64,000 bases of DNA from Cenococcum geophilum 1.58. Lineage: Eukaryota > Ascomycota > Dothideomycetes > Gloniales > Gloniaceae. Positions 25,232 to 64,000 of this stretch are shown here, piece after piece. Each line of letters opens with the position of its first letter. The first letter of the stretch is position 1. The position numbers and the translations under genes are program-made. The stretch covers positions 248,001 to 312,000 of the forward strand of contig KV748268.1 of assembly GCA_001692895.1 (NCBI GenBank). Reading direction: 5' to 3'. Below the pieces are notes generated by a model. The model was not told the origin of the DNA. It did no database searches and saw only the letters and a program-made list of their open reading frames with translations.

Positions 25232-25262
25232 TCGGATTTGCGAAAATAGAGAATAGTTAGTT

Positions 25263-27039: not shown

Positions 27040-27180
27040 TCGCTTTTTTACCCTAGTTTAGCTAAGACCCAACCTTAACCTCGACTATAAAAGGCCTTCT
27101 CCCTCGCTGCTTTTGCCCTCATGCTCCATCTCCTCTTTTCTTTCCCGCTACCGTGCCACCTCAGACTCTAGCTGTCAGCT
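27040..27180 (+). promoter_or_regulatory. Promoter-like block: TATA box followed by pyrimidine tract
   Basis: TATAAAAG at 27,086-27,093 is followed within about 10 bases by a long C/T-rich tract (CCTTCTCCCTCGCTGC and onward to about 27,160), an arrangement common at transcription starts of filamentous fungi. It lies upstream of the plus-strand relics at 27.7-30.3 kb, in a patch where RIP is mild. Inference from arrangement only. Confidence 0.35.
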
Positions 27181-27659
27181 ATAAGGTATTTTCCATCCCC
27201 TTAGCGTCTATATAGGTGCTCTGCCCGCCTTCCCCAATCTCCATATATTTTATACTAACGATCACCTAGCGCTGCAACTCTTCGGCCCTTTTTATGGGAC
27301 ACATTTATACTCTCTCCTAGTGTTAACGCATGCTTCGGTCCTACCGTATTCCTCCTTTCTTCTCTCCTCTCTCCTCTCCTCCCTACGTCCCCTACCGATT
27401 AGTGCACTGGAATAACATTTCCATTTATCCTCTTCTTTACCTCCGCCTCTAGTAGTGTCTTAGACGTGACTATAATATACGACTCAATCCTTGTCGGAAC
27501 AGCTATAAATGGCTGTGCCGAGAACCGCCTAGTAATGGATTATACGGGTTATAGCTACTGCGAGCTACAGGACGCGTTAGGTAGTGTCGTATTATAGCGT
27601 CACGATAAAGGCGAAGCCAGACGCCGAAGTGGGTCCTTAGCGAAACTATAGGCTAATGC

Positions 27660-28760
27660 TAGTTACTTAGTTTAGTTAAAGCTGCGCCGCCGGAAGCTAA
27701 AAGCCCTCGCCCTCCTTAGCGCCTTTTTAACCTAGACCTAGACCTTACCCTTCCCTAATAATTAGAGGATTGCATTACAATTGGAGAAGCTGCTAGGCTT
27801 TAGTTTAATCTAGCCCCCTATTTAGTTAAGGAGGTACGGGTTATATAGAAATATCCTTTATATAGACCTAAGACTTATAAGGCGGAATCTGGGGGTAAAC
27901 GGCCTATTTAGTAGTATAGCCTGGCTTTTAGTGGAGCTGGTGTTATAATCTTACTCTTAGCTGATGAATACTGGAGAAAAATTCGCGTATTTAACCTTTT
28001 AACGGAGACGGACTTTATATAGTGGCTGCATTAGCTAAAAGGGCGCAGTGAGATAGATACGGGTGTAATCGCCTAATCTACTCGCGCTATCTACCCCCTT
28101 ATATTGTTTGTGATATCCAGCTATAGGTAAGGGTAAAATATAACTAAGGAAGTTCCTTAAATCTAGGGGAGAGATTTAAGGATACCCTTATTACTTAGAG
28201 TGTTTTTTAATACTTAGCAGAATTACGGCACGCCCCCTACCTGTCTAACCCTAGGAACTATAGTCTCGTAGAGAATCTAGCACGGAAGATCTAGTTTGCT
28301 AGTATAATCGGGTTAGAAAAATCGGGTTGGAAAACAGATACGTTAGCGCTAGCTCTAACTCTAAGGAATAAGGGTAGAGGCACTTCGCCACCAACCTCCT
28401 TAATAAGGAGGCTTGGTGCGATGCCCCTATTAGAGGCTGAATGTGCTAGGTTAGTTGGTTGGGTCTTGATTGTAGTTTCCTAATAGGCGTTGATCTTGTG
28501 ACAGAGTTTAAGCCTATATATACCTTTATGCGTTATAAACGGTAATTGCTAACGGAGCGTAGATTACACGTTTTGATTCGCTATTAAGTTGGTAGGGTTA
28601 TTTTAGTATAGATACTGCGGATATAAGCTAGTGGCGAAGAGGGAACTAGCGTAGACTTAAAAGCCTAGCGTAACCCGTCTTTTAGGGCTATTAAAAAGGC
28701 ATAAGGCAATAATAATTCTAATAATAATGGTGGCAGTAACGGTGGTATCTTCTTAACCCC
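27660..28760 (+). pseudogene. Unidentified plus-strand coding relic, mildly RIP-affected
   Basis: From about 27,740 a frame reads LEDCITIGEAARLQFNLAPY, LVKEVRVIQKYPLYRPKTY, LAFSGAGVIILLLADEYWR and IRVFNLLTETDFI with few stops. From about 28,330 a second frame reads LLNKEAWCDAPIRG, VSWLGLDCSFLIGVDLVTEF and PIYTFMRYKR, ending in an Asn/Gly-rich run near 28,720. The two probably belong to one gene separated by an intron or indel. No family was recognised. CA and TG are noticeably commoner here than elsewhere, so this copy is younger or was less exposed to RIP. The promoter-like block at 27,086 is suitably placed upstream. Confidence 0.45.
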
Positions 28761-29320
28761 TTCGTTTTGATTTATAAATTTCACTTAATAATATTAATTT
28801 CTATACTACACCCCCTGAAAAACTAAAGGCTTCTTAGCATTATGCAATTATAGCTTCTAAGGTAAATGTAAGCAACACACTTAAAAAGAGGACGAAAAAG
28901 GGGAGAGTACCTCACTTCCCTCTAAGAGATAATTCTATAAAATATTTGGCCTAGTTGCGCTTAGGCAAGTTATTCTATATTACCTTTTTTAAATATTTCA
29001 CCTAATAAGGCACCCGTAGATCCTAAGGCTTTTAACGAGTATAAAGATATTTACGAGAATATAAGTAACAGCTAAGACGCTAGAGGAAGCAATTAAGGTA
29101 ATTTAGTAATTATCCCCTCCTTTTTTTCCTAATAACTATAAATATGTCTAACGGTTAGCAGCGAATCTAATATTTATTAAAGATAATACAGCCGACCTAG
29201 ACTTGGAACCCGAAGCCAAAGGGGATAAAACTAGTAATACTGGCAATAAAGCTAATAAAGTCGGCGATTAACTAGCACCTTATGGGTTAGGTATGCACTT
29301 CCCCCCTATATAACGGCCTT
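28761..29320. other. Link region between two plus-strand relics
   Basis: Charged, Lys/Arg-rich frames (LKKRTKKGRVPHFPLRD near 28,890) and Asp/Asn-rich text (TADLDLEPEAKGDKTSN near 29,195) suggest a disordered linker of a larger protein, but the frame changes more than once. No domain is seen. Confidence 0.35.
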
Positions 29321-30300
29321 GCTTAACAATTATTAGGTAGCGGAAATAACCGCGGCAATAAGGACAACGAGGATAAGGAGTTACCTTCTTTAGAGGAGCT
29401 GGAAGATCTCTTTAGCACATCTACGTATAACTATCTTAAACCTATAGTAGAAGACGTTAATGAAATAAATAGCCTAGCTGAGGGAATTAATATTATAACT
29501 GTCCCCTAGGCTATACAGAAGTTAGAGATCTACGTAGTAACTAACCAAGACTCCTTAATAGCCAATAATATAGATAATATTGGTAGGTTATAGATATTGA
29601 AAATATTGTTACTATAACCTAATAACTATAATATAGACAATCCGCTTATTAGGAAGGAGGGTAATTATAAAAAAGGGAATACGGAAGGCGAATTATCCTT
29701 TATGCTAAGGAAGCGGAAGCTTAAGCGGAACAATATTACTAATTATAATTCTAACAACCCTACCAAAGAGAGTAGTGGGGGTAGTGAGGATAGTGATAAT
29801 CCACGTCCCTAGAAGCAACAAAGGCCACCCACCTATCGCGAAGACTTGTCTTCTAGCCCCCTTATCCCTAACCTCAACTCTTAATACCCGCAAGTTAACC
29901 AGCAAGTAGTATCCACTCCATATCCCGCTAGCCCTTCGCTTTAAAAGCCTACCCTTCTCTATAGTATTAAACCGCCGCATAATAAGGCTAGTAATTATAC
30001 TTATAATAAGGACAAGGACGGTAATAGCGGCGGCGTCGCTAATAACTGGAGCGACGTTTTAAACCTAGAGCCTGCTATAAAGCGTCATACCCGGACTAAA
30101 AAAGATAAAATTAATAAAGTGAGCTTAGATAATAAATGGGAGATTAATAATATTCTAGGGGAAAAAATAACTAAGTTAGGGCGCAAATATAAGGTGGCTT
30201 GGAAGCCTACCTGGGTTTATAAGAGCGGGCTTTTAAATTCTAACGATGTCCTTAAGTCTTATTAAAGACGCGTTTGGTAAGCTAAAGCTAGATTATTATA
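29320..30300 (+). pseudogene. Coding relic ending in a chromo-like domain
   Basis: A frame of about 320 codons begins with acidic text (DNEDKELPSLEELEDLFST), runs through a Ser/Asn/Pro-rich disordered middle, and ends with KWEINNILGEKITKLGRKYK, VAWKPTWVYKSGLLNS and NDVLKSY (30,130-30,265). The last part resembles a chromo domain: an opening strand, the K(Y/V)xVxWxxxW core and a final helix. Chromo domains of this kind occur in chromatin proteins and at the C-terminus of many fungal mobile-element proteins; context does not decide between these. A few in-frame stops break it. It may be the 3' end of the gene that starts near 27.7 kb. Confidence 0.5.
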
Positions 30301-31130
30301 GGTGTACTTTTTTTCTAAAGTTGTAAAAGTGAAGGGCAGGGTTGCCGTGTAGAAGAGACGGGGCTAGTAGCTTAGGCGTATTTTTGTGTTTTAGTTGGTC
30401 CTGCGGAAATAGAAAGCCGGGGTTTACATTTAGTGGTCTAATTATTTAAGTGCATTTTCTTAAGGCGGTGTTGCTATATGCAGCCATTTTTATCCAAATT
30501 TCGCTGCTAACTTATCTATGTTATATATATCTAATTAAAACGGAGCCTTATAAGTTGTAAGACTTATTATATTACTGGACATTACAGCACCTATTCGTTT
30601 ATATCACGAATTCTCTCTTTCACCATTAATATACTTAAGAATTCGTCGAATTATAAACTTCTCTATACTTAAGATATGCCAATCTACTAAGATTACCGTC
30701 TAATATAAAAAGTGCTAGAAGAGACCAAGATATTCCTTAAAGATAAATCGCATCGTCCCCTGCCCTAGTGTTATTATATAAGGTGGGTAAGCGTATTTTA
30801 ACCCAATACCTGTAACATAAAGTACGGCGTAGTTTAGGAGCTTGCTAGCAACTAGAGATTGTCTAGTATGTTCTAAATAAAGGATAGTTAGTATATTATA
30901 CTGTATATAAGGATAGTAAGACTAATGGACTTATAAAGCATAAAACTTACCTTCGTTAACGCCAATAACGCCTAAGAAATAGGTAAAGTATAAATCTGGA
31001 CAGAGAAGCCTTTAGATTTTTAAGCTAAAGACGAGATTTCGTGAACGTTAAAAGGAAAGCCTTAAGAGTGTAGAGGAAATGCCGCGGCGCCGTTACTAGG
31101 GATGGATTCCGTAAACCTACGAATAAGTTT
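30301..31130. other. No recognisable gene
   Basis: Mixed-composition stretch between convergent relics: the plus-strand chromo-like relic on the left and the minus-strand kinase relic on the right. Frames are short on both strands. The part next to 31,130 may hold the C-terminal end of the kinase gene, but I cannot follow it. Confidence 0.35.
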
Positions 31131-31134: not shown

Positions 31135-31880
31135 AGTTAAAATTCCTAGTTTTATAAACATACCTTACTTATCCATTTCTTTAATAACGTCATCTATATG
31201 GTTATATTTGCCGTTCTAATAGCCTCCAATAATGACTCTAAAGGCCCCTAGGGACTTTAATTTGGGAAATATTCCTTATTTATAACGATCTTCTATATTG
31301 TCGTTGGAAAGCTTATAAAAGGCGATATGACGCATTAAGATATAATAATAAGCCAATCTAAAGGTAAAAATTTCGTCCTTTTAAGGCGTGCTTAGATATA
31401 GAGCTTGGGCTCGAACAGAGTACAAAACGAGAAGAGGAGACCTATTAATTAATAAACTAGCGAAGTTAATTAGCTTTGCGTTTAAATGTTTATCTAAGAG
31501 AATATTATGGCACGAAATATCACCGTATATAATATATCTGGAGTAAATATATTTAAGAACGTCTGCAAGCTGTAAAATCTAACGCATTTATAAAATTCGA
31601 TTAATATTATTACTTCTGTCCTAAAGAAACCCGTAGAGCTAGCCGTTTAGAGCGCGTTTTAGACGTATTACCATGCGGTTATCCTTCCAGAAAAGTTCGC
31701 TGCTATGGTATTATAAGAGTCCATTATATTAACCGAGTCTCTTATAGATCTCCTTTTCAACTTTAATAAAGTGTTGAGAATTCGCGTTATTTGGAGCTTT
31801 AATAACCTCATTTTGAAGTTTATCGCAATATATAGTGCCCGAAATTCCCCAGCCGATAAGATTCTCACAGCTATAGCCAG
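31135..31880 (-). pseudogene. Eukaryotic-type protein kinase relic
   Basis: Serine/threonine-type protein kinase fold on the minus strand. In order: a glycine-loop segment LIGWGISGTIYCDK (about 31,820-31,862), the Lys strand NEVIKAP, a helix FIKVEKEIYKRL, then ILQLADVLKYIYS, the catalytic loop YGDISCHNILLDKHLNAK (31,470-31,535) equivalent to HGDISCxNxLLD, the metal-binding segment as NFAS in place of DFAG, and a C-lobe with SLGAFRVII and NHIDDVIKEMDK. Changes such as H-to-Y and D-to-N are those RIP yields. The length of about 245 codons matches a bare kinase domain. The 5' neighbour on the same strand (32,290-32,800) might be a separate gene. It resembles the compact kinases amplified in many ascomycetes. 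Confidence 0.82.
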
Positions 31881-36388: not shown

Positions 36389-37195
36389 ATGTCATCTCTT
36401 AAAAAGAAGAGAGAGCCTTTAAAGAAATTTCCTTGTCTATTTTGTATCCGCCGTTTTAGTAAGTTGTGCAATATCTAGAAATATATAAGGAAGTTCTATA
36501 AAGAAAAGAGTTAACTGGATAAATACTGCTATATATGCGAACAAGAATTCTAAAGACTGTTAAGTTTTACCTGGTATATAAATATTTATAAATTTAAGGC
36601 AACGCCCTCTAGTTTTTAAGCAGAGTTTAAGTAATTGGTATTATAGCCACGCAGAGAGCTGTTCGGGCGCACATTAAGTATAGCACCCTTAAGTTCTCTA
36701 GCGGAACCAGTGCAACCGCCCAATTGGAATACGTTCAATACTACGCCCTTTAATCGCAATTGGGACACATTTAATGCTACGCCCTTTAACGATTTACCGG
36801 AGCTGATGCAGCCGCTATCCTTCTAGGGCAATTTAAGCTCGTTAAGTGCGGTAGCCACTAATTCTTTAGCGGAGCAAGTACGGTTATTTTATTGGAATAT
36901 ATTTAATACCACTCTATTTAACGATCTATAAGAGCCGATGTAGTAGCCGCCCCTATAGGATAACTAGAATACTTTAAATGTAATAGGGCAAGTGCAGTTA
37001 TTTTACTGGAATACGTTTAATGCTACGCCCTTTAACAATTTGCTAGAACTAATGCAGCCGCTATCCTCCTAAGACGATTTAAACCTGTTAAATGCGGCAC
37101 CCTCTAATTCTCTGGCAGAAGTACGGTTATTTTATTAGAACACGTTTAACGCGATACCCTTTAACCTTTTATTAAAGTTAATATAGTAGTTATTC
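36389..37195 (+). pseudogene. C2H2 zinc-finger protein relic with internal repeats
   Basis: Starting at an ATG at 36,389 (MSSLKKKREPLKKFPCLFC), the frame shows two C2H2-like fingers. CLFCIRRFSKLCNI with a following YIRKFY has Cys pair intact and His replaced by Tyr, and YCYICEQEF with INIYK is altered the same way (36,430-36,590). After a linker, a 40-60 residue module repeats about four times, marked by WNTFNATPFN and FNDLPELMQPLS, with SLAEQVRLFYWN between copies (36,680-37,170). A DNA-binding or RNA-binding role is expected from the fingers; the repeat module is unknown to me. Stops fall at Gln/Trp-like positions. Beyond 37,200 the frame continues weakly and then fades. Confidence 0.6.
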
Positions 37196-37679
37196 TCCCT
37201 GGAGGGTCCTAGTATGACAAATATATTACTCTCTAATCTAGACTTAAACATTATAGGCCTGGCGTAAGCCTTTTAAAATCCCCGCTATAGCCTAGTACTG
37301 ACTAAAGCGTATTAGTGTGACTTATAGAACCGCCTCCTAAGCTCGCTTAATCGCCCTCCTTTTAAACTAAATCTACTTTTAATTATGCGCTACTAGTTCT
37401 CGTCTAGGCTTAGAGCAATATTTAATACTTTGGTAGAGGGATATATAGGAGAATCTGTAGCTAGCTATAAGCGGTAATCTTTATTCCTTTTACGTACTAC
37501 TTAATGTAGTTACCGCTTCTAAACTATATATTTACTACTTCTAGAGTAATTATTTCCAAACTGCTCTAGAATCTTATTACCAGTTTAATTATCTAGTACT
37601 CCGCGCCTAGGATATCTGGTCCATATATATGAAACTACAATCGCGTATACTAGGGAAGGTGGTTTATTCTTAAGGAAAG

Positions 37680-38340
37680 GTCTTAACTATAATAGCTAGT
37701 GATGGTAAATAAAGCTAGAGGAAGTTTAGTAAATGCGAAAATGTTTATAGGGTTTAAGAGTACACATATATCACCTCTATTAGCCTTAATATCTACTATT
37801 TTCTTAGTAGCTACTCTACGAGAATATGCATTAACCTGGAATATCTATATAATATTTTAATCTCCTCCTAAATAATAGTATATAGCCCCTATAAGATCTT
37901 TAGCAGAAGCCATTTTTTTCTATTTATAATCGCGCCCTAACTCTTTATGGGTTAGAGTAGGTTTGGATAAAAGGCAGGCGGCAATATAAAAGCCATTATC
38001 TTAAGCCGAGAAAAGTATTGTTTTAACAGCCTAGAGGGATATTAGTCTTGCTTGTAAACTTTAGAAATAGCTTACCTTATTTAAAACAATCTCCCTTTTA
38101 ATAAAGCTTAATGACTTTAATAACTCCGCTAAAGGGGGCTTAATGCTTATAGCTCTTTTAAGAATAAGAAACCCGTCTTCTATAAAAGTTTATAAAGCCT
38201 CGCTAAGATCTTCTTTCGTAGAGAGCTTTTACCTGCTGCGTTTGACGACTTTAATATCCATATGCTTATTACTTAGTCGTTCTGCCGTTAGTTTAAAGTT
38301 ATCATCATTTTACTGCTTAAAATTTTAAGCCGCGCGGGGC
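37680..38340 (-). pseudogene. Unidentified minus-strand coding relic
   Basis: Minus-strand text: NDDNFKLTAERLSNKHMDIK, KLSTKEDLSEAL, FIEDGFLILKRAISIKPPL, AELLKSLSFIKREIVLNKV, NGFYIAACLLSKPTLTHKEL and GDICVLLNPINIFAFTKLPL. The frame is consistent for about 210 codons, with stops at probable Gln/Trp codons. No domain is recognised. It faces the zinc-finger relic and lies inside the inverted-array segment. Confidence 0.5.
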
Positions 38341-38985
38341 AGGTTCGGCGGGGTATAGCTATAATCCAAAGCCTCTAGTACATGTAATGCTTTACCTAGT
38401 AAGATTAATAAATGTTATTATATATCAACTTTAATAACTAACTATCGATATCTAATATCTCTAGCTTAAATATATATAAGCTTATTTCGTTAAACCTCTA
38501 AGTAACGCTTACTAGATTTAACTACTTTAAGCTAAGATTAAAGAAGACTTAAGCTTAAGCTTGAGCTAAAATAACATCCTTAAAGAAGTAGTCAAATTCT
38601 TACATACCGGGAAACACTAGTAGTAAAATTTAAAGGAACGTGCTAGTTATAAAGCAGGGGCTACGAAATCAGTGCCTTAATTAGACTAGGGGCAACTAGA
38701 GGTTTAGTAGGTATTAGACTCTTAGTTTGAAAATGAGGAAGATTAGGTTTAGACGGAAAATAACCTAGTTTAGGTGCTAACGTCTGTCCTTTAAAATGAT
38801 AAGTAGATTTTAAAGATAGAGGTCCTAGGGATTACCGTAGAATTATTAGGGGATTCCTATAGAAGTCTTATAGGAGTCCTATAGGAGTCCTAAAGGAGTT
38901 ATATAGAAGTTATATAAGAGTCTTATAAGGTTATCATAGGGCTATAACGGGATTGCTAAGATATTGCTAAGGAATTGCGAAAGGA

Positions 38986-46249: not shown

Positions 46250-48500
46250 AGTAATAAAATATTATTCTATCTACTCTACTAGTACTTTTAGATCCTTCCT
46301 TACTTCCTAAAGCACCTCCTTTATTTAAGAAGAAAGTTTTTTATCCTTTCCCTTTTGCCTCCTACCGCCTAAAAATACTACCTTTTGTAATCTGTTAACC
46401 TAAGAGATTAGTAGCTAATAGTATAGTAAAAAGTTATCACCTACAGTCTTAAGAAAATCCTCTTTATCAGCTACTGCCCTTTTTTTCATTTTAGCCAGCT
46501 CTTCTATATCTACAAAATTCTACTTATTAAATCTGTTAATAACGTTGCCTTTTTTATTAGGTCTATTATAGTAAATATATATCCAGAATAGCACCTAAAA
46601 GAACGACTTAAAATCATGCCAAGCTGAGTATATCTCGCCTAGGAGCACTCCAATCGCTATAAACGCTCTTATACCAGTCTTACCCCACGCTTTTAAAGGC
46701 CCTTCCCGCTGCTCCTTAATTGCAAGATTAAAGTCAATTAAGAATGCCAGCTAAAAAAGATTGTTATCTTCCTTATTTATTATAAGGTTGCCTATTAAAA
46801 TATTATATTGGATAATACCAGCCCACGTATATAAAGACTCGTATCCTTTAATGCTACCCTCTAGTATAGTAAGCATTACAGCCTAAAAGCTTGCCTTATA
46901 AAGAGGCTTTCTATAGTCCCTAGTAATAACGCGTCAATATACTTAATTTAGGGTTATAGGGCGCCTTCTGTTTAAAGGCGGAGAGCCCGAATATATACGC
47001 TTACTAGGCGGTAATAGGGCGTTAGTATAGCTAGACGACCTCTTTCTACTAAACGACCTATTTCTACTAGAACTTCGGCCTTTCCTTATACTTATTTTCA
47101 CTCCAGCCGGTCTTAAAGGCATTATTAAGTCTTCTAGCTTATAGTTTATCGCTCTTATAATATTTAGCCCCTTATAGACGTTTTTATAAATATTATCTTC
47201 CTTACCGCCTATATAAACTATCTCGTAGTAATAGTACCTGGCTACGTTGACCACTTCTTTCCCCATTACCTTACGTAGTAGTTCGCCTTCTTCCTTACGC
47301 TATAGGTACTACTATAAGTCTTTAATGACAAGGGGTATCTTAGAGGTGTCCCCCTTACGGTATACTTTCTAGTAAGTAGTTACTTAACTAGCGATATAGC
47401 GTGCCCGCTTTATGGGTTTGTTAAAAATAAGACACTCGGTCTAATTATTGTATATAACCTTAATATATCGCTTGCCGTCCGATATTAAAATAATAGGGTT
47501 AAACCCAAGCTACTCCTTATTTATCTAGAGAAATCCTAACATTGCTGAGGTAAATTATAGTCCGTCTTTGTTAATATTAAATAATAATAATGCGATGCCT
47601 CCTACCCAGTTATACTCCTATAGCCGCATAATAGATCTATAAAGGGTAAAGCCTAAGACAAAGCGACGAGTGTTCTAAGCGGCGAAGACTTCTCTTATAT
47701 ATTTTCCTAAATTAAACTATACTTACGAGGCTATATTAGTATTTAGATTACTCTTTAGCTCTCCTAGTACAAGTATATGCGACTAATAGCATTAAGAGCT
47801 TTTGCTAGCTATTAGATTATCTATAAAACCAATATTTAGCTTTCGCTTTACTATAGACCCTTATAAGGGCTGCTTAGTATATATAATAAGCGTTTATCAT
47901 ATCTTTAGGGCGGACCTATGCTCCTCTACAAAGCCTAAAAATGATTTAATTAGGTTATTAAACCACTCTAGAATATTATTTTGCTCTGCGCTTCTAGGCC
48001 AGTTATACTAGCCGCCCTCAGCGTATAGCGGATTGTCTCCTTCCTTACATTTTTTAAAAACGGCGGCGCTTACCTCTTTAAGACCTTTTACTTCCCTAAA
48101 GAATACTTTATATAAGCCAGGAATCCCCACATAAAGAGGGCCTAGCTCCTTCTTTAGAATATAATCTACGTATTTCCTATATTCGGACGAGTTAGTAAAG
48201 CTACTTATATTACGTAGATATGGGGTTTAAACGTAGAATGGTAGCGGTTAGGAAGGAGGCGTAGACTCTATTACAGTGGCGTACGCCTTTTCCTAGATAA
48301 CCTCGTTAGGTTTAATCCAAAGGATTGTATTTAGAAGGGGTAGGAACCGCTTAATATTAAAGTCGTTAGAACTGACCGCTAAATTAAGTCTTAATAGATT
48401 AATAAGAAGGCTTTTATTGCCGCCGTTAGATAGCAATAAACGAGAAGTAAAAAGGCTCTGTAGAGCTAGTATTAGATTAAGCAAAATATTCTTTAGTTCT
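46250..48500 (-). pseudogene. FunK1-family protein kinase relic
   Basis: Fungus-specific FunK1 kinase on the minus strand. In the N-terminal part (47,500-48,050): IVKRKLNIGFIDNLIASKS, ELKSNLNTNIAS, FNLGKYIREVFAA and NTRRFVLGFTLYRSIMRL. At 46,943-47,266 a stop-free patch reads KEVVNVARYYYYEIVYIGGK, then a Ser/Arg-rich insert (SSSRNRSFSRKRSSS), typical of the family. The kinase C-lobe follows: YESLYTWAGIIQYNILIGNL (equivalent to the HRDIS catalytic loop), AFLIDFNLAIKEQREG (DxDLAIKE), GKTGIRAFIAIGVLLGE and FFQVLFWIYIYYN, ending with DNFLLYY and a Lys-rich tail at about 46,260. Length and domain order match a full-length FunK1 protein. Many TAA/TAG sit at Gln/Trp codons. FunK1 genes are commonly amplified in fungi. 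Confidence 0.88.
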
Positions 48501-48639
48501 GTAAGCGTTAGATAGAAACTTATAACGGGTATATTAGCAATTACCTTTATTACCTATCTAGTGTAATAAGTCTAAAGAGCTAGAGATGTCTAGATCCTAA
48601 TAAGCCAAGTTAAATAAATTGCGAAAGTCACTCAGCCCT

Positions 48640-49890
48640 TCCCCAATAGGCTTTGTTTTTATTATCTCTAATTTAAAGAGATTTGCTATTGTAGGCGGGC
48701 GCGCTAAGAGCTACGTTAGGAGGGCCGATGTAGTAGGCGAGTAGGTAGGCGAGGGGAGATTAAGAGGCTAGTATATAAGGACGGTATAATAGCAGAGAAG
48801 TAAATAAGTGTAGGGAGGTCAAATATATATCGGGCGCGTCTTAAAATAAGGAAATAGTGAAGGAGGAAAGGAAGTAAGGTGCGAGCGAAACGCGAGGAGG
48901 ATTTAAAGGTTAGGCGTAGAAAAGTTAAGCTAATCTAATATGGCTTAGACTAAGGCTTTACAGGGCTTAGTTAAATGCTAAGCTATAATAACCTAAAGTG
49001 GAAAGTTGCAGGCAGCATTTATTAGTAATTATAGTTATCGGCTTTTAGTTTATTCTGTGACGCGTAAGGCTTAAATAGAGTGAGGCTCTAATATAGCGAT
49101 GCTAAAAGGCGCCAGGTAAGGTACAGCTGGCGATAGCGGGTTAATTATTGGGTTGGTTATATAAGTACCTACAATTAATTACGTAGCTAATTCTAAAATA
49201 AGCTAAACCTAATATGCCAAATATAGATATAGCCAACCCTATTTTATAGCGCTTAATCGACCTATTTCCTATAACTAGGATCTAGTTCTTAGAACCGGAT
49301 CCTTTTTTAAAATCGCGCCCTTTTTACAGCAGTTAATTGGTCTACTTCGTAAACCCGAATTAGGATCCTAGTTTTAGAATTAAATTCCGTTCTTAGAATT
49401 GTAACTTAAGCTATAACTAAAAATAGCTTCTCTTTTCCAAGACTATTAAACCGCTTAGCTTAACGCTATACCTTTTTAGCCACGTTTAGTACGTTTGGCT
49501 TAAAATTGGGATAGGATACACTTTTTAGAACAAGATCCCATTTTTAGAGTTACAACTTAGGCTAATATTAAGAGAGATATCTGGTATTTATCCTTAATAT
49601 TCCTACCTTATTAATATAAAATTTAGAGTCAACCTGTACCCTAGTTACCTATAAAAACGCTAAAGACTTTAATACCTTAACTTTAATTCTTTATAGAGGA
49701 CCAAGCAAGTTATAGGGCGGCTAACTTATCACTACTAAGTATATAAAGGTAGAGGACTTATAAGCTTACTATAAGCGAGTTTTTAACTTTAATTTAACGT
49801 ATATACAAACGATAACGAGATACTCTTAACATGGAAGCAACTAGATAGAAAAACAATACTAAGCTAAAGAAATCCTAATTGGCGCCTTAA
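48640..49890. other. Upstream region of FunK1; loosely repeated GGATCC/TTAGAATT blocks
   Basis: No gene recognised. Three related blocks, GATCTAGTTCTTAGAACCGG (near 49,270), GATCCTAGTTTTAGAATTAA (49,365) and GATCCCATTTTTAGAGTTAC (49,530), form a dispersed repeat of about 130 bp. The part at 48,690-48,790 is GC-richer and would be the promoter side of the FunK1 relic. Confidence 0.45.
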
Positions 49891-52339: not shown

Positions 52340-52892
52340 TCGCGAAATAAAATAATATTTTACCATTTCTACTAGAGTCTCTACCCGCTTAACTTATAGC
52401 GAGCTATAAAGTATTTGCAATAATCTATGCTTTTACTTAAATGAATTTATTTACTACCTTAAAAGCAATAAGTAAGGTAAATCTATACTAATGACCTAGG
52501 ATTTTTTAAATTTTTTATAGACCTAGGACGCATACCACCTTAGTAATTATTAGTCGTGTTTAAGACTACAGTACTTATCAATTTATATCTTAAGGATATA
52601 AACATATTATTTTATAGTGTTTTCTTTTTGTTTAAATCATTTCTCTACTTATAGTATATAGCGGTTATTTACCTATCCCGGTATAGTAGGGAGGGGTAAT
52701 TAGGTTATATAAGGGGGCTTAGACTTATAGCTACGCTTATAGGGCTGTTTACATATAAACTTCTCTAAGTATGTATAAGGGGGCTTTAAGTTATTATAAA
52801 GTCTATATATATAGGAACTTCTTTAATATTTCTAAATCTGGGACTTATATATTTCTTTTTTTTATAGTTCTAGTATTTTTCTAACATTTGCT
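52340..52892. other. No recognisable gene
   Basis: AT-rich with short frames only. The phrase TATAAGGGGGCTT repeats near 52,717 and 52,775, and is otherwise unremarkable. Confidence 0.4.
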
Positions 52893-53533
52893 TCCTATTT
52901 ATATACTAGGCGTTAATAGAGGGCGCTAGGTTAGATTACCCTACTTATATAATTACCTAGTTTGTACAATTACCTAGCTTATATAATCGCCTAGCTCGTA
53001 TAATTACCTAGTTTATATAATCACCTAGCTCGCACAATTACCTAGCTTATATAATTGCCTAGCTCGCACAATTACCTAGTTTGTATAATTACCTAGCTTA
53101 TACAATTGCCTAGCTCACACGATTACCTAATTTGTACAATTACCCGGCTCGCATAATTACCCAGCTTGCATAATTACCTAGTTTATACAATTACCTAGCT
53201 CATATAATCACCTAGCTCGTAGGATCTACTAGCTCCTATAAACATCCAGCTCGTATAATTGCCTAGCTCGTACAATTACCTAGTTTGCATAATCGCCTAG
53301 CTCACATAATTACCTAGCTCATAGGATTGCCCAGCTCCTATAAGTACTATACTCATACGGTTACTTAGCTCGCACAATTACCTAGCTTATAGGATCTGCT
53401 AGCTCCTATAAGTATCTAGCTCGTATAATTACCTAGCTTACACAATTACCCAGCTCGCACAATTACCTAGCTTATAGGATCGCCTAGCTTACCTATTAAT
53501 ATCCTATTTATACGCTAGGCGTTAATTAGAGGA
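52893..53533 (+). repeat. Large 17-bp minisatellite framed by direct repeats
   Basis: From about 52,947 to 53,500 roughly thirty copies of a 17-bp unit near ACAATTACCTAGCTCGT occur, some organised as 34-bp variants with AGGATCTGCTAGCTCCT. On both sides stands nearly the same block: TTCCTATTTATATACTAGG followed by CGTTAATAGAGG (52,893-52,923), and ATCCTATTTATACGCTAGG followed by CGTTAATTAGAGG (53,501-53,533). The inter-unit differences are almost all C/T or G/A. Confidence 0.93.
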
Positions 53534-54448: not shown

Positions 54449-56480
54449 GTTAAGTTGTAGGGCATATGCCATTTCGTCTACAACGCGTCTTACAGCCTAT
54501 ATATTAATCGCCGGTTTATATCATTTATATAGTATATAAGATAGATACTATAGGGTATATAGCAACGAAACGAGGTATATTGTCTACGTGCGTACTTTAG
54601 CTATAACCGTATATATCAATATTAGAGATTAATGTAAACGTTTTCTATTTAGCTCCTTGTCTCCCTATTAACCCTTTAAAAGCCTAATCTCTTTAATAAA
54701 GTCCGGTATAAATAAGCCTTCTTAAGTAAGAAGACTTGGAAGTAGGGGCGCTGCTAGCGTTAATATATAAACTACTTAAAAAACTAAAATAACCTTTCTA
54801 AGCAACGCCCCTCTACTTTTACGTCTTATAGGGCCTATAATATATAGGTCACCGGTCTATATCTCTTATAGGATTATATTGCTTAGTTAATGCCTAGGGT
54901 CAATTAGTCAATTTACTTACTTCCTCCCTAAACACTATATTTAATAAAGCTAAAACCTAAGTTAGTATAAGTATTCTAACTATAATATAATAAAACTAAT
55001 AATAGGCTTTCCTAACGGCTTATACCATACGCCAATTAAGGACTTTAGTAGCTACCTAGGGTATACTCTTAGCCGCTAGCAGCTCGTTTAAACGCTCTAG
55101 AAGCTCCTTTTATTTATCTATAGGAACCTTAAATTAAGTAGAGCGTATTAGATGTAATAAGTAAAGTCGTTTAGCTTCTTCCTATATAAGTATCTGCCGA
55201 TCTTTGTTACTAAAAGTCAAGGCTATACTTATATCCCTACTTACTAAAAACCGCTTCCATTAAGTTTTAGAATGTCCGGTAATAGCCTATATATTACTAG
55301 CTTTAGACCTAGCGGTAAGACTTATTATGCGTGGTGGCGTTAAAATAAGAAATTGGTGTTACTGCGCGAAGTGCCGTTTACTAGGGTAGAGCTATCAACC
55401 GCATTAACTCTATTAACCCTATTAACCCTATTAACCATATTAACTATATTAACTACGTTAACCTAATCGACCGCTAGCGATATAAAACCGGCTAACACCA
55501 CTAGTTTACACTTCTGCCTTCTCCTAATATAGCTAATAAAGTCATAGATATGACAATGGGTCGGTCTATATAACGATACTATATTGGTGCCTCTCTGGGT
55601 ACGCTGACCCTATATTTACCTCTATTCACCAGTTCTCTTTACGTTTTAATAGGCTTATCCTATAGGTAGCTCTGCATCGCTCTTTTTATTATAAGCCTAT
55701 AACAATTACCCTGTTTTATTATAAGATACTAGCCTCCTCGGCATCACGTTCCTAAAGAGTTAAATTAATTACTTAAACTAGATAGACGGGAGATTTCTAG
55801 GATAAGTTAATGCGAGCCTTAATTAAGGTTCTATACCCTAAAAGCCTTTCCTGCTAGGAACTAATCGGATTCTTTTCTATATTCCTTAGAGAATTGACTT
55901 AATCCTAAATCTAAGTAGGTGCTTTAACATTGCTTTACTAATGGCTAACTATATCAAGCCCGGGTTCCGTTTACTATTGCGAAATTCAGGGCTTACTAGC
56001 AGAGTTATAAGGCCTATAGGCTAACTAGGCTGAAATATAGTTACCTTCTTTCCTTTACCGTAATGCACGCTCCTCTACCTGCAGCCGCTGTATATATTTA
56101 TATAGTGTTTATTTATTACCTTATAATTTTCCGTACTTTCACTAGATATAGATAGTGGGGTTTTTCTAGTTATATGACTGGCTTTATCCAGGTAGAGGGG
56201 TAGCGGAAAATGCTTGGCATATATATAAGCTAAATGTTGATTTAAAACTTTAGAAGTTATATTAGTTTTTAGTTAAGCGACTAATGTTTAAAGCTCTAAC
56301 TAATTAACTAAATCTGTCGCAGATTAGATAAAGCTAATAACGACTTTTTAATATATATATAGAGGCTCTAGAGCTATATTTAATAAAGTAGAGTTCTTGT
56401 TTTTAATCGTCCTATTTGACACTAAATTACACCCTCGAATATTGTTTGAGATGTAGTTAAAACTAAAACTAGAAAAGAAA
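54449..56480. other. Gene-poor stretch with a 9-bp tandem repeat at 55,393-55,462
   Basis: About 2 kb in which I recognise no gene. At 55,393-55,462 the unit ATTAACCCT repeats about seven times with ATTAACTAT-type variants. Short Ser/Leu-rich frames elsewhere do not persist. The right end is the upstream region of the BTB relic. Confidence 0.45.
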
Positions 56481-56489
56481 ACTAATAAA

Positions 56490-57602
56490 ATATATTATCT
56501 AAAAATGTTCTGCTTAGCTTAGCGCAGCTTATAGATAGCGAGAAATATAGCGACTTAAAACTTGTATACTAGGGGCTGGAGTTTAAAGTCTATAAAGCGA
56601 TTATATGTACCTAATCTTCTGTACTTACGGCTACATATAATGAAGGCTTTTAGGTAAAAGCTAATTAAACGTTTAGTGAAATCGACCTTAACCAGGAACT
56701 AACTAACGGGTAAGAGGCGGTGACTAATATTATAAATATTAACGAGTTCGATTCTGGCACCGTTAAGAGAATAATCTAATTTATGTATAAGAGGGACTAT
56801 AATAATAGCGAGGAGGAGTAAGGATCTAATATTATAAGTGTAGAAAAGCTTGGCTAAAGTGAGGGATATATTTATACACTAATCCAATTTATCCGTACTT
56901 AAGCTTCGATCTATAGAATTAAAGGTAGCGCAACTTAACGACGCCGATGCCTTATCGCTATCTAAACTAGATAGTAGCGGTGGCGATAATGGAGACATAA
57001 TAATATGGCTAATAACGGCCTATATTATACTTCGCCACGTTTATATTAATATAATTGCCGATTATTATAATATACTATAGCTAAAAGAGCTTGTAAATAT
57101 AAAAATTTAACGTATTTTAGGAACTAGCTAGTCCGCAAACAGGTTTCCTAATATTATTAAGGATATCTTTAGCCTAATAGGCGACTTAGCATTATATAAT
57201 ATAATTACCTTAATAGCGGCCGAGTATATTAAAGAGCTTATTAAACTTAAGGACTTTATAGGGCTAGATATTATAAGCGATTTCGCCATCGGTATTATAT
57301 GGACAGTAGTTACCGCATCTAAGGATATGGAGGAAAATTTTATATAGAAACTTTAAGCTGTTTAATCTTAGCTATAATAAACAGAATCACTACTTTAATC
57401 CACCGAGGTGAGGTACGCCGCGGCTGAGCATAAAAGCGAAAATATTAATAACTGTCTTAATACCCTCTGCACGACTAGGACCTATTATAATATCGGTTAC
57501 AAAGCCAAGTTTATATATTATATTAAGGACAGCAGTTATCTATCCGACCCTAATCACCCTTATATACTTCATTGTAAAAGGTGCGAGCATTATATATAAG
57601 TA
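56490..57602 (+). pseudogene. BTB/POZ-domain protein relic
   Basis: The BTB/POZ fold, a dimerisation and Cullin-3 adaptor module, is clear from 56,504: LLSLAQLIDSEKYSDLKLV, YQGLEFKVYKAIICTQSSVL, then after an insert INEFDSGTVKRIIQFMYKRD, YNNSEEE. A shift of frame follows near 56,820-56,900 (an intron or an indel), and the C-terminal part reads HVYVNIIADYYNIL, LKELVNIKI, PNIIKDIFSLIGDLALYNI, AAEYIKELIKLKDFIGLDI and VTASKDMEENFI. The last patch (57,408-57,599) is stop-free and ends KRCEHYI followed by TAA, with Cys residues suggesting a small zinc-binding tail (LHCKRCEHY). This is the usual layout of short fungal BTB proteins. Stops lie at Gln/Trp codons. Confidence 0.85.
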
Positions 57603-58060
57603 AAGATGTATAGCTTAGGAGATCGGCTTAGGTAGGAAGTCATTATATAATACTTCTCTTCCTTTCTCCGTTTGGGTTAATCTAAGAAATTTAAATGTAT
57701 ATCTCGTCTATAGTCGGTCCGTTAGATATTATATAGCAACTATATTATCTATCTCCTATTAGCCTCCCCTTACCTTACCCTTTACCCTACTATTTATCTT
57801 ATTCTTTACCTTATCCTTACCCTTACCTTACCTATTACCCCTTACCCCCCTAGACGAATTATAAAATCCTAGTTATTGCATCTATTCTACTAAATACTAA
57901 AATAGAATTAGATGATAATAGACTAAAATGAAATAAAAAGTGGTAAAGAATAATAAGATAAACGCGAAATAACTAGGAAAAGGTCCTATATATACTAAGC
58001 GCATAGTTTTAAAGATGTATTTTGTGCTTAAGGGTCACTTCGTAAACGTTACATTCAATC
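57603..58060. other. Intergenic; C/T-rich CCTTACC low-complexity run
   Basis: Between the convergent BTB and DUF3435 relics. At 57,765-57,855 an irregular run of CCTTACC and CTTTACC occurs, and nothing else is recognisable. Confidence 0.6.
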
Positions 58061-60436
58061 TCACCCTACTATAGGAGTTTAGAGAGATGCGCTTATTAGA
58101 AATGCTTTGTAAAAGCAGTTAGAGTGTAAAACCTATATATACGCTTACTAATTGGTAGCTTTTAGTTCCTAAGGCAGATAAAGCATATCTTTAGTCTTTT
58201 CTCCTTATATAAGGATAACTTTACACTCTTTAGCGCTTTAGCCGCTTCTAAAATCTTAGCATCTTCTTTAATCTTAACTTAACTAAGGGCGATACCTACC
58301 CTAAACTGTCTCTGGCGATAACTTGGCCGATACGCTCTACCTTCCTTAATATTACAGTAATCTACAACTGCATTAATAGCATTATTACGTCTACGTATCT
58401 TATCTTCTAGTGACGTGCTAGGTAGCGTTATAATCACTTTAATAAGGTGTTTGTGTTCGGCCGATCTATTATTATTAGATTCTAAGGTTGCTTTAATATC
58501 CTCACTAAATATAACTCCGGAAAGTTGCCGCTTAATGTTAATTACAGCTTGTTCGTTATCCCAATTCTTTTTAATATTTTCCAATAGCGCATTTCTCTAA
58601 CGTTGCCTTTTATTTATAATTTTTTGGCTAAGCTTTTAGTATTCTGTGCTTTCTGTGGTTTTGCGCTTAAGGCTAAGCTTTAGCTTATTTTAAACTTTAA
58701 TTAAGGAACAAATACGCGGGTTCTCATTTACCGATGAGGATTGTTCTATTATTAGGTGCTATAGCCGCCGCGGGTTAATTGATCGGCTTATTTAGCATAC
58801 TGCTTTTATTAACTTTTCTTAAGGCTCTAAGCCTTAAACAATTGCTTATATATCTACGTCAACACGCCGTAAAAGGTAGTGCTTTAGAAACGTTTAAGTG
58901 TCGGCGTGCTGCATTATTAGGTTCTGGAGGGCATCAGTTACATTACCTAAGTAGTAAAGATATTAGAAATGTCTTAGTAGAACCGGCTCTATATAATAAA
59001 ACTTACTATTTTTATTAAATACCTTGCCTGCGCCGTAATAAAGACTATATAGGCGCGCAACCTGCTAAAATCCCGTAATTATACTAAGGTCCTTAATCTA
59101 CGGTAAAAGAGTTAAGTACTATAAAGGTTGGTTAGGTGAGACCTCATAGCTATAAAAAGCTTTAATTGATTGCCAAAATATGGGGATATTATCTAGGTCC
59201 GGATAGAGTAATAGTAATAACTAGTTACGCCTAGGCTTAATATATAGCTTAGTAAGCTATTTTGTAGACGTTAGGTTAGGGGCTCTAAAAGCTTAGTCGG
59301 TAAAAAAAAGGCCTAAGAGAAAGACGTAAGGGCTAAGAATAAGTAAAGGGTTAAAGATAATCTTAGGAATTGGGAAAGTATTACTAGTTCTCTATAAGTA
59401 TAAGGTAAGAGGAATAGGGTAGAAAGATAACACACGCTTCCTTTATACTAAGATATTCCTTAGTGAATTTAAATATAAACTTAAGCACGATATTATAGGG
59501 ACCGCCCTTTGGGTCCTAAATAAGTATAACCATTATATATTAGTAGCATAGGTTTAGAAGAGCTTTAGGTCGGCTCGCAGTATAAAGACCTAGTTATATT
59601 AAGAAATGCACTTATATCCGATGTCGTCTAACTATATATCGCTTCCTTATTATAACTAAGTTAGTTTTAAGGACTAGGGCGAGATCCTCCGCGTCCATAA
59701 TAGTCTTTTCTTACTTTTTCTCACTTAGACTATATTTCTCCGCCAGTTTCCAAAGTACCTAAGAAAGATATCTTAGCTTTACCTTACCTTACTAGGTTAA
59801 AGGATTAACTAAAAATGTAATCACCTTATATATCTAGCGGTTTAGTTCACTAGCAATTTTCCCTCCGGTCGCTCTCTCATATATAAGGCGATAGTACTTC
59901 TAGTATAGGCCAAGCGAGCTAAAAACCTTTATCCCGCACTATTTTCTACTACTTTTTCTTCGTTTCTAGTTTAGGGACCAGTTAAAGAAGCTATAAAGGA
60001 GCCGAAGTGAGAGGACTTAGTACATTTTCTTGGGGTCTTTCCCTATATAGGTGCAGTATTTAGAAATTGTTAGCTCTCTACCAAGTTAGGCCTAAGAGAA
60101 AGCCGTTAAATAGGTTATTACTTACTAATCCTAGTATTCTTCAATGCGGTTAAGGAGAGCTATAGTGGTATTAGCGTAGTCCTATGTCGTAAAATTAGAT
60201 TCCTTAAACTCTTTTAACTATTTAAGGTAATATTTTAGTAAATAGTCTTAATCCTTATAAAGCTATACTTAAGCGGACGCTTCGTAAGCATTTTTAGATT
60301 TAGTAGTGCTATCGGTATCACTATTAGGGACGGTCGGTTCTGTCCAGTAGCTGTTACCGTCGCTGTCTATATCTATATACTTATCGTCGGTAACGCTAGA
60401 TAATAAGCTACGATTTAATAATCGAGCGCGCCGCAT
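58060..60436 (-). pseudogene. DUF3435 tyrosine recombinase relic (Starship captain type)
   Basis: DUF3435 proteins are the tyrosine recombinases that move Starship giant transposons. Read from an ATG at 60,436 (MRRARLLNRSLLSSVTDDK) the minus strand shows an acidic N-terminus, then NTTIALLNRIEEY, FLRPNLVES and APIQGKTPRK, with weaker core text to about 59,250. The catalytic C-terminal part is unmistakable: TGFQQVARLYSLYYGAGK with Arg lost from the YSLR position (Gln here inferred at a stop), then GNVTDALQNLIMQHADT, FLKHYLLRRVDVD carrying the presumed nucleophile Tyr, and IVxGLEP (58,850-59,060). Next come INPRRL, SSSVNENPRICSLIKVQNK and a stop-free patch 58,279-58,584 (WDNEQAVINIKRQLSGVIF, AEHKHLIKVIITLPSTSLED). 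The zinc-type KICFICLRN closes it near 58,180, and the rest of the tail is missing. RIP stops are frequent. The gene is divergent from the GNAT relic. Confidence 0.9.
58947..59006 (-). other. 60-nt spliceosomal intron inside the DUF3435 relic
   Basis: On the minus strand the conserved text YGAGKVFNKN is interrupted by 60 nt that start GTAAGT and end TACTTAG, with a branch-like TACTAAG inside; removing them restores the reading into NVTDALQNL, which is contiguous in relatives I remember. Length, splice sites and branch motif fit a typical ascomycete intron. This shows that the relic came from a genomic gene copy, not from a processed transcript. Confidence 0.75.
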
Positions 60437-61120
60437 TTTAGGGAGCTAAAAAAGAACTTAGGGTAGTGACGGCAAAAAGGATATAGAGAGTAATATAGGG
60501 TTAAGGAGATAGGAGGGTAAAGAATAAGAGAAACGGGGCCTAGGTTAAACGGATTAGAGGTAGGAGCTATAGAGTATATATAGGTTTAGCGCCAGGCGCG
60601 TAAAAGGGTCATACTTTTAGATAAACTGGTCTGCCCGTAAAAAACGGGGCACAGGCTAGGTAAGCGAGAGGCTTAACGTTAGACCGGTAAGCAAGAGGCT
60701 TAGGGCGACAAAGAGTTTTAGTGACGCGACCTCTAAAAACGGCGACAGAACCCTCTAAAACCGGCAGTCAAATCTCCATTTTCTTTTTTAATGGAGTAAA
60801 GAAAGATATTAAAACAGTATAGTATAAATGTAGTTATATCTAAGCCAAGTTTGTTATAAGCTATTTAGTAAATAGCCTAAGCCCAAAATAGTTAGCGTAA
60901 CGCGTTAATATTACCATTTTGGTATATCTATATACTAAAAGGTCCAACTCGCTCTAATTATCTACCTTCTCCCCTAACCTATTAACTAATTCTCTATACG
61001 ATTATACACAAAATTCTTCGTTAAGTCTATTATATTATACTGCCTATTAATAAGCCCTAAGACGTAAGCGCTAGAGAATTCGTAAAGACTTTAAGATAGC
61101 GTTAAAAAACGTCCCTTTAT
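60437..61120. other. Divergent intergenic gap with a palindrome at 60,917-60,940
   Basis: About 690 bp upstream of both the DUF3435 relic (leftward) and the GNAT relic (rightward). Features: paired blocks GCGAGAGGCTTAACG / GCAAGAGGCTTAGGG near 60,665-60,705, paired CTCTAAAAACGGCGACAG / CTCTAAAACCGGCAGTC near 60,730-60,770, and a copy of the dispersed palindrome, TTTTGGTAT ... ATACTAAAA form. If the recombinase was a captain, the element's 5' end would be expected in this gap. Confidence 0.55.
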
Positions 61121-61129
61121 ACCTTCGCG

Positions 61130-62910
61130 AAGGCTATAAATATAACCCGCCTCCTATTCCAGTTTCTATAGATAAAGTAGCTATAGTGGCTTCTAATTAT
61201 ACCTATCTAGCCTTAAGATATTTCTTAACTAATTATGGCCTATTAAAAGTTAAGTAACGCTTATAGTAAGTGTTTAATATATTATCTCACTTCTACGCCT
61301 CGCGTTTTCTTTCCATTCTTTCTAGCTAGTATTTATAATTGTATAGATATAAAGTAAAGCAAGTATTCCTAACCGCTGCCCTATAGCTATTATTACAAAA
61401 TCTCCCTAAGTTACCCTAAATTCCCAACTAGTAATAGTATCCGCTTAATAAAGTTTAAGAGACTAGCACTAAGCTTATAAAGTAAGCAACTAGCATTACT
61501 ATTAAGATTGGTAATAATACGCCGGTATTATCTTCTCCTTACTATAACGCTAAGAAGTATACTATTATAAAGAACGCGGAGTTCTAGGTAATAACCGAAC
61601 CTATAGCGTCTAAAAGCTATAAATAGCCAAAAAAACGGGATATGAGAACTTCTATAAAGGGTAGTAATAACAATAGTAGCGTGTTATTAAAGTTGAATAG
61701 TAACTAGGACCCTACCTATTATATTAAAAAGATTACTAATTAGGGGGGAAACTAGCTCCTAGCTCCGGTAGAATAGGAAGGCCGTAGAGAATTTTTAGGC
61801 CGCAATTTCTATAACCGTATTAAGGCTTAGATAAATAAGTTGGAAAAGGTAAGTAAGGAAAATATAGATATTAGCAATCCTACTTTCGTTGCTAAAACTA
61901 ATAGTAAGGTTGTACTATGCTTTTAGATCCTATCTACCCTTAATATAAAGTTACTATAATTATTTTGGCGAATATACTAAGGATAAGCGCCAGCTCCGTT
62001 ATCTAATTATAATCCTACTAAGCAGCCATAGTGGGAGACCTATATATTAGCTACCTCCGCCCTTCTTTTACTAATTAACATCCCTAAAGCAAAGCTTAAT
62101 ACTATTAAATTTACCTACACCTTGGCGATTAAAGACTTTAAAAGTAATGGCGCTATAAAGAAATATGAAGAGGCTAAGAATGCGAAAAAGCTTAGCGCCG
62201 CTAAGAAAAAACAGCTTAAGCTCTAGAGGAAGCATAACTACCCAGAAATTACTAAAACTTTTATACCTATTAACAGGAGCCTAAAGCCTAAGGCGAACGT
62301 ATATCTTCGCCCTACCTATTCTAAAGATATTGTCCAGATAACTAATCTCTATAACTATTACGTTACTAATACTATATACTATCCTAAGTTTAATCCGCGT
62401 ATAATATAGAATCTTGTTAACCGCCTTACCAATATCCTAACGAATAAACTGCTATAGATTGTTGTGGTTAATCGGTCTAAAGATACTGGTTTTTATAGCT
62501 CGTAGGTAACCTATATCCCTAAAAAAATAGTAGGTTTTATATACGCCGATAATTTCTATTACCCTAGAAGTATATACCGCTATACAGTTAAGTTAGATAT
62601 CTTCACCTACTTGGATTACTGTAATAAAGGAATTGGTAGCTGCTTAATAGACAAGATATTAAATCTTATAGATATTAAGTATTAGGCTAGGGCCGGATAT
62701 AAGTAAATAGCTAAAGTAGACGTATCTAGGTCTATAGGTAGCTAAATTATTAAAACCGTAATCTGCTAGGTGCTGTATAGTATAGGTAATAGCACTAATA
62801 TTCTCTAAACCGCTAAATTTCTCCAACGCTTCGGCTTTAAAAAAGCGGGTAATATTTAGTGCATAGGTTTTAAGTGCGATAAGATATAAACGGTGCCTTT
62901 TAGTTAAAAC
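61130..62910 (+). pseudogene. GNAT-family acetyltransferase relic
   Basis: One plus-strand frame of about 590 codons. The first 380 or so residues are variable and contain YNPPPIPVSIDKVAIVASN and a basic Ala/Lys-rich helix (YEEAKNAKKLSAAKKKQL, 62,160-62,220). The C-terminal third is a GNAT fold: KANVYLRPTYSKDIVQITNL, YNYYVTNTIYY, a strand KKIVGFIYADNFYY, then VKLDIFTYLDY and the acetyl-CoA pyrophosphate-binding motif NKGIGSCLIDKIL (62,618-62,665), fitting (R/Q)xxGxG/A, and a last part TAKFLQRFGFKKAGNI. I recall a similar long ascomycete protein with a disordered N-terminus and C-terminal GNAT domain. In-frame stops are of RIP type. Upstream it is divergent from the DUF3435 relic. Confidence 0.75.
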
Positions 62911-64000
62911 TAATACTAAACAAGCTAACTATACCCAGAGTTAATATGGCTATGTTTCAGTATATAACCGGTAAGGATATTAACGTGGGATTTGGTCCTA
63001 TAAACCCGCTTTAGTTAATTATAGTTACCTTTCCGCTTAACATCGCTTCGCTTTATAAGTCGCTATATCCATATTATCTACCTACTCCTTAATTATCTAA
63101 AAGAAGCAGTCTATCTTATAAAGCTTCTACAGTTCCCTGCTAACGATATTACGGAAAGCGTCACTTATATAGACCTTACTTATACTAAAATGCCTACAAG
63201 CTTTTATATAGAGATTAGTTAAAGATAAATATATAGTATTATGGTTCTAGGCTATTTCTTTTACTAGCCTTTTTTATTTTATAAAATTAAGCTCTAAATC
63301 TTACCTATAGTATATATCCCCTAATCTCATTTTCTAAACAGCCTTATACTTATTAATCCTGTCCTTTAGGATTGACATAAAAATGCTTACTATAAATATT
63401 TAGTAAGTATTTTAGTATTGAAGATAAGGATTACGTTAATGACTTTCTTTTAAAGGCGAGATTATAGATACTTCAATTTACTACTCTGGCTTAGTCTTTC
63501 TTTTACTTATAAAATAGATATAAGATAACTAAGTTCCTTACTCTAATATATTAAATATACTTAAAAATATATCTTATTTAATAACTCTATCTAAAATAGT
63601 ACTAAACGACTACGCTTAAGCACGCCTAGAGTAATCGCGTCCTTTTAAACCGTCACTATGCCAAAATTCCTATTCTATATCTATCTTACATTATATTTAA
63701 GAGCTTTATTAATAATATCTATAATACTTTATAGTATTTAAACCTATTACTTTCTAACTACCTTCCTAACTTTAAGGGTGTCCAATCCGGTAGATACCTT
63801 AGGATTTCTTCTTTTACTTCTAGTCACTTTTTAAGGGATTTTAAGACTTAAAAGGGAGAGTAATAATTGCTACTATTTACGCTTGGGTACTTCTACGCTT
63901 TTTAATAAGACTGACCTAACCTTAGCGTTTTTATATTTGGTTTTACTATATTCTAGCTCTTAATTCTACCTACGCATTATAGTATATTAAGCAACCTTGT
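62911..64000. other. No recognisable gene to the window end
   Basis: A short plus-strand stretch at 63,095-63,215 reads LKEAVYLIKLLQFPAND and ESVTYIDLTYTKMP without stops but is too short to assign. The remainder is AT-rich with leucine-rich chance frames. Confidence 0.4.

Follow-up and report, generated by a model that had tools for sequence, protein, structure and literature searches.

A RIP-degraded 33.8-kb Starship with a DUF3435 captain at one end, inserted at a TTAC site and carrying a FunK1 kinase fossil

Near the right end of the 64,000-nucleotide stretch of DNA analysed here (the window), an earlier note had recognised a captain-type recombinase (DUF3435) surviving almost whole as a RIP fossil, had proposed a profile search through its stops as the check, and had asked whether a dead Starship occupies part of the window. 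The answer that we reach is yes: 26978–60799, a little over half of the window, is very probably a complete 33.8-kb Starship silenced by RIP, with its captain at one end, inserted at a TTAC site. This reading is built on the gene and its introns, the ends of the element with their direct repeats, an empty site, a target motif, copies elsewhere in the genome, a FunK1 cargo gene and a divergence among copies that consists almost only of transitions.

The captain and its two introns were placed as follows.

57973–60436, minus strand: captain gene, DUF3435 tyrosine recombinase, dead (Pfam, whole-genome profile search, copy alignment, 45 in-frame stops)
59384–59435, minus strand: intron A, 52 nt, phase 2 (copy alignment, and an intron-like interruption at the matching place in a relative on contig C49)
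58947–59006, minus strand: intron B, 60 nt, the intron of the earlier note (alignment of 21 captains)

With stops read as X, the minus strand matched DUF3435 (PF11917) over profile positions 2–418, which bears out both the identity and the near-completeness claimed for the gene. One frame carried profile positions 2–93 (E 4.9e-16), and the next held two DUF3435 stretches with a whole-frame E of 1.4e-79, the stronger stretch covering positions 212–418. The whole-genome profile search placed positions 86–211 at window 59008–59385 (E 4.0e-29) and positions 212–418 at 58357–58947 (E 1.2e-46). Neither a better match nor any other Pfam family was found in the six frames of 57998–60800 at E ≤ 0.01, and the DUF3435 profile matched in none of 14 control genomes. 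The start codon at 60436 agrees with the extent first proposed (58060–60436), whereas the end lies 87 bp further on, at 57973, which corresponds to the stop of the intact C49 relative. The three exon frames as drawn contain 45 in-frame stops (23 in the first, 6 in the middle and 16 in the last), comprising 23 TAA, 22 TAG and no TGA. Frame changes in the intact relative suggest that the first exon frame may contain further introns. Read on the minus strand, 60436–57973 is the fossil of a DUF3435 captain killed by RIP.

Alignment of the window captain with 20 other copies (n = 21), each taken with 10 kb around it, upheld the 60-nt intron with good splice signals: intron B is gap-free in all 21 captains, every one of which has the acceptor TAG, and 20 of them have a CTAAY branch site. 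Its donor is GTAAGT in 12 captains, GTGAGT in 3 and ATAAGT in 6, the last being expected from RIP of the G. GTATTT was rejected as the window donor because GCATTT stands at that place in most other copies; the GTAAGT that follows serves as donor. Intron A had been overlooked, so the captain has at least two introns; it measures 52 nt in 16 captains, 50 nt in 4 and 49 nt in 1, with GT and AG conserved in all 21, and the frame jump near 59400 arises because this intron joins the two frames. A 2-nt indel near 59400 (16/21 copies) had been considered as a captain frameshift, which would have implied movement in trans; this reading was dropped because the indel falls inside the 49–52-nt GT-AG segment present in 21/21 copies and the C49 relative has its intron-like interruption.

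The element, its ends and the older repeat into which it inserted have the following coordinates.

26978–60799, minus strand: complete RIP-degraded Starship (very probable reading), 33,822 bp, captain end on the right (sharp ends common to many copies, empty sites, one of 43 pairs)
26978–26981: left direct repeat GTAA, TTAC on the captain strand (TTAC at 39/40 left ends, TTAT at 1/40)
26982–27011: opposite terminus, AAAATAAGATGGAGACCACGTATTAGGAAA (72 pattern matches genome-wide)
60773–60795: captain-end terminus, TCTCCATTTTCTTTTTTAATGGA, with an internal inverted repeat TCCATT...AATGGA (68 pattern matches genome-wide)
60796–60799: right direct repeat GTAA (at captain ends, GTAA in 18/21, GTAT in 2/21, GTTA in 1/21)
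21600–26977: left part of the older repeat hit by the Starship (repeat copies)
60800–62700: right part of the same repeat (14 other copies, 89–92%)

The captain occupies the first position, its ATG at 60436 lying 363 bp inside the element end at 60799, and is transcribed inward. A search with window 26950–28700 gave matches starting at window 26966–26978 in all 39 other scored loci (40 of 179 candidates scored), and reading these 39 left ends placed the boundary at the GTAA of 26978–26981. From the other side, all five scored copies of the left-flank repeat end at window 26982–26985 (5 of 1,067 candidates scored), and the right flank from 60787 matched 14 copies of the same older repeat, these five included (40 of 85 candidates scored). 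By coordinates, the host-repeat site is uninterrupted in 5/5 scored copies, with one GTAA versus two in the window. One such empty site was read (L082), and the window flanks, joined at a single GTAA, match it gap-free across 164 nt. Terminal inverted repeats are frequent in Starships though not universal; a perfect one was not found here, and just ATGGAGA is common to the vicinity of both ends. Short direct repeats with a precise empty site, as expected of a Starship, are present, as are the size and cargo expected of one, its 33,822 bp lying above the lower bound of 15 kb given in PMC12134995. The older flanking repeat (21979–26977 and 60800–63999, six frames) gave no Pfam match at E ≤ 0.01. 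At least 14 other copies of it exist, six of them 44–52 kb from a contig start, and it is possibly subtelomeric.

The genome containing the window comprises 177 Mb in 162 contigs. The captain end was present in 20/20 sampled loci with 1–4 mismatches per 36 bases, while the 60 bases beyond it were unrelated among these loci, save in the pairs L021/L030 and L027/L034. Collinearity extended to the limit of the sampled stretch (about window 52600–52960) in 6/20 loci and broke earlier in the rest, e.g., near 57815 or 56243. Window 36500–38500 gave 20 full-length copies including the window itself (29/29 candidates scored), and with coordinate-only searches from 47600–49600 (40 of 207 candidates scored) and 28500–30500 (40 of 200 scored), interior pieces of the element were found to recur in the same loci. 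RIP-tolerant patterns with up to 2 mismatches matched 68 captain ends and 72 opposite ends genome-wide, and the reversed patterns matched none; both patterns were built from copies already known, so more diverged relatives are missed.

Pairing ends on the same contig, in the same orientation and within 120 kb yielded 43 reciprocal pairs of about 28–95 kb (28.2–95.4), ~2.1 Mb in total, of which 11 measure 33.2–34.0 kb; the window pair measures 33,822 bp. A correctly placed partner was found for 45 of the 68 captain ends, compared with 3 whose partner lay on the wrong side and 6 whose partner was wrongly oriented. The unit occupies different sites, with 35 non-redundant flanks among 40 left ends. 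The interiors of paired elements were sampled by few pieces, and pairing by ends does not prove every long pair to be a single element; C52:652813-716534, one of the long pairs, is in doubt, its two flanks mismatching the expectation for a single insertion.

Several copies differ in structure. Head-to-tail junctions at C52:608638 and C3:4543561 each have a single common GTAA, as if one Starship had inserted at the direct repeat of another. Three copies (C66:386500-426376, C5:1201565-1241523 and C25:2183705-2223243) are ~6 kb longer (39.5–40.0 kb) and otherwise collinear where sampled; by hand arithmetic the extra ~6 kb falls in the segment equivalent to window 49.3–54.6 kb, and reflects either an insertion shared by these three copies or a loss in the 33.8-kb group. 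Window 52935–53489 produced many overlapping matches to one stretch in collinear copies, which suggests a tandem repeat inside the element. Two further loci share an internal junction.

56137–56142, plus strand: internal TTTCAC (TTTTAC in L034 and L027), the junction in both loci (copy comparison)

At L034 (C66:379700-389699), the captain-end segment (window 56137–60800) is inverted and adjoins the left end of a complete copy, with breaks at the internal TTTTAC (window 56137–56143) and at the element's own end (60799); this arrangement reads best as an inversion made by the recombinase at two TTAC sites. At L027 (C52:650800-660799), a captain end from another subfamily adjoins the internal TTTTAC (equivalent to window 56137–56142), and its far end was not found. 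A simple nested insertion was rejected for L027, since the paired left end at C52:716501-716534 lacks the expected flanking sequence.

Cargo was scanned with Pfam, reading X at stops, in six frames of 28000–60800 and in the plus frames only of 26978–28100.

46580–47833, minus strand: FunK1 kinase fossil (Pkinase_fungal, PF17667), cargo (E 9.9e-72; E 2.8e-72 in the genome search, 20 stops)
31462–31767, minus strand: second, partial protein-kinase fossil (PF07714 with E 3.7e-5 and 23.6 bits, over its 23.1-bit cut-off; PF00069 with 23.7 bits, short of its 31.7-bit cut-off)
56525–56821, plus strand: possible, weak BTB/POZ fragment (E 0.0026 and 18.3 bits, short of the 20.5-bit cut-off)

DUF3723, ferric reductase, patatin-like and NLR genes gave no match at E ≤ 0.01 in six frames of 28000–60800 and the plus frames of 26978–28100; these are common but not obligatory accessory cargo of Starships (a list drawn partly from PMC9594970 and partly from general knowledge). 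Genome-wide, the FunK1 profile gave 107 matches (107 of 226 candidates scored). The profile also matched in 4 of 14 control genomes, above the cut-off in 2, so a weak FunK1 match might represent another kinase; those relied on here are strong. FunK1 occurs in 36 of the 43 paired elements, against ~1.3 hits expected by chance, and is lacking from 7; in 35 of the 36 carriers it lies on the captain's strand. Its distance from the captain end is 4,276 bp in four elements and 12.8–13.5 kb in 9 of the 11 elements of 33.2–34.0 kb. A literature search by term returned no report naming both FunK1 and Starships, nor, among the best-ranked papers, any naming FunK1 together with DUF3435 in fungi.

These data allow the other readings of the region to be weighed. 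Cryptons are elements of a few kilobases that hold a recombinase only, unlike the 33.8-kb, cargo-bearing element here. PMC12134995 states that DUF3435 genes more often lack cargo than carry it, which would suit a small Crypton-type tyrosine-recombinase element with its captain-like gene caught by chance inside a bigger segmental duplication, but we regard this as very unlikely for a bounded 33.8-kb unit whose two ends move together, whose interior pieces recur in the same loci and with which FunK1 travels; the equal-length end pairs in 11/43 elements and the empty site likewise disfavour it. It is scarcely credible that 26978–60799 is just a module within a bigger or composite Starship, in which case the GTAA at 26978 would be internal. 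Other paired elements do reach 95 kb, the two head-to-tail junctions share one GTAA, and the L027 and L034 junctions lie at an internal TTTTAC; however, in the empty site 26981 and 60800 meet exactly, around a single GTAA, which contradicts such a reading for the window copy, and 11/43 pairs are equal in length within 1 kb. An ordinary old pseudogene of a non-mobile host DUF3435 gene would fit a dead captain with 45 in-frame stops, yet can practically be dismissed, given 68 captain ends genome-wide with mostly different flanks among the 20 sampled, and the precise insertion; the empty site refutes it. A complete Starship remains our reading of the region.

To define where this Starship inserts, we compared 40 left-end sites, the window included, on the captain strand; they comprise L070, which abuts the captain end of another copy, and L048, which abuts the inverted segment of L034. 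The consensus was TTTACTNNNTAAA. Positions 1–4 are TTAC in 39/40 sites and TTAT in 1/40, followed by T at position 5 (35/40), T at 9 (32/40), A at 10 (34/40), A at 11 (33/40) and A at 12 (29/40; 26/35 among non-redundant sites, P 9e-6). After removal of near-identical flanks (35 sites), positions 5, 9, 10, 11 and 12 were all enriched, with P from 4e-10 to 9e-6. The base preceding TTAC is T in 20/21 captain ends, and the position counts at left and captain ends therefore give the target TTTAC T NNN TAAA. In its architecture, a 5-base spacer separates two inverted arms of 4 bases each (TTTA...TAAA), an arrangement well suited to a tyrosine recombinase.

Each of the window's 32 two-kb bins gave strong RIP indices, with a composite index of 0.73–1.43, and the host is presumably a RIP-competent filamentous ascomycete. 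Compared with the window captain, the six closest of the 20 copies differ by 227–271 transitions and 0–4 transversions in ~2.8 kb, whereas the next three have 17 transversions each and the remaining eleven have 31–51. In most of the closest copies, transitions are commonest at CpA, followed by CpG. The near-absence of transversions means that divergence among the closest copies is nearly all RIP-like. That the captain is a fossil does not make it old, because its nearest copies differ almost solely by RIP-type transitions. As far as these comparisons of sequence go, amplification would have been recent relative to ordinary mutation, with killing by RIP afterwards.

A relative that probably escaped RIP was found among the at least 165 DUF3435 matches in the genome (100 of 347 candidates scored). 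Two stop-free DUF3435 stretches are present among the matches listed, on contigs C49 and C33, and neither belongs to the 20 compared copies. The C49 gene (C49:751326-753905; locus L042, 751000–754500) has a single stop, inside an apparent intron, in the first of its matched stretches and none in the second. GC content rises from 0.24–0.29 to 0.43–0.56 at a TTTAC ~500 bp before the ATG, which is how an unRIPed element lying in AT-rich DNA would appear at its captain end. Two FunK1 genes (C49:799048-818552), with one stop and none, start ~48 and 66 kb downstream on the captain's strand. The region probably represents a Starship of this lineage that RIP has spared, and gene and kinases would then belong to a single element. 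The last exon of the intact C49 relative matched no solved structure at E ≤ 1.

A simple sequence of events can be proposed for the window. The captain would have recombined at TTAC, bringing the element into TTTACTNNNTAAA-like sites and leaving one TTAC at each end; catalysis by the captain itself is what we infer. Amplification may have taken place during growth without RIP, in an asexual phase, and later sexual cycles would have silenced the copies by RIP.

With dozens of bounded, RIP-killed Starships of one lineage in one genome, target choice, amplification and silencing become readable statistically, from many insertions instead of one or two. The recurrence of FunK1 invites a broader and more tentative suggestion, to which we give rather less than even credence: FunK1 may belong to the core cargo of this Starship lineage, perhaps with a function for the element itself, and Starship carriage may be the engine of lineage-specific FunK1 expansions in several ascomycetes. 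In the accounts cited here, such expansions are described in non-syntenic regions of Paracoccidioides (PMC3203195) and on accessory chromosomes of Fusarium (PMC6001611) with no mobile-element explanation attached; if the suggestion is true, both would gain a simple vehicle.

Among known systems, one of the closest likenesses is to the Hephaestus Starships, including Nebuchadnezzar of Aspergillus fumigatus, which as described in PMC12153272 likewise have a DUF3435 captain at one end, a TTAC target and the canonical motif TTAC(N7)A. This published target is included in TTTACTNNNTAAA, with its A at the same place, and is sharpened by it. The target given for Janus of the Phoenix family in a table of the same source, TTACTA(N2)A, fits less well, its A being found at that place in 5/40 sites here. 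Unlike Hephaestus and Nebuchadnezzar as presented there, our element shows FunK1 in place of any metal-resistance cargo, is present in high copy number and has been killed by RIP. We take the likeness as a hint from target-site sequence and claim no Starship family.

Multi-copy Starships (in other species; PMC12153272) and RIP-killed ones (PMC11623301, PMC11905480) are already published; what is new here is the link to FunK1 and the resolution of the target. According to PMC11623301, heavy RIP of a duplicated Hephaestus Starship can occur in experiment. The derelict Prometheus copies (PMC11623301) and the GtA elements (PMC11905480) also bear a RIP signature over the whole element and are reported as immobile or gene-poor; these cases concern one or few elements, with a composite index of 0.2–0.3 for GtA, whereas here there are 43 pairs and the index is 0.73–1.43. 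For the Limos Starship of Fusarium falciforme, RIP was likewise recognised by transition-dominated divergence, with counts of 813 transitions and 26 transversions, and of 511 and 45 (PMC12257634). Limos was compared between species in that source, whereas the copies compared here belong to one genome and the nearest differ by 0–4 transversions.
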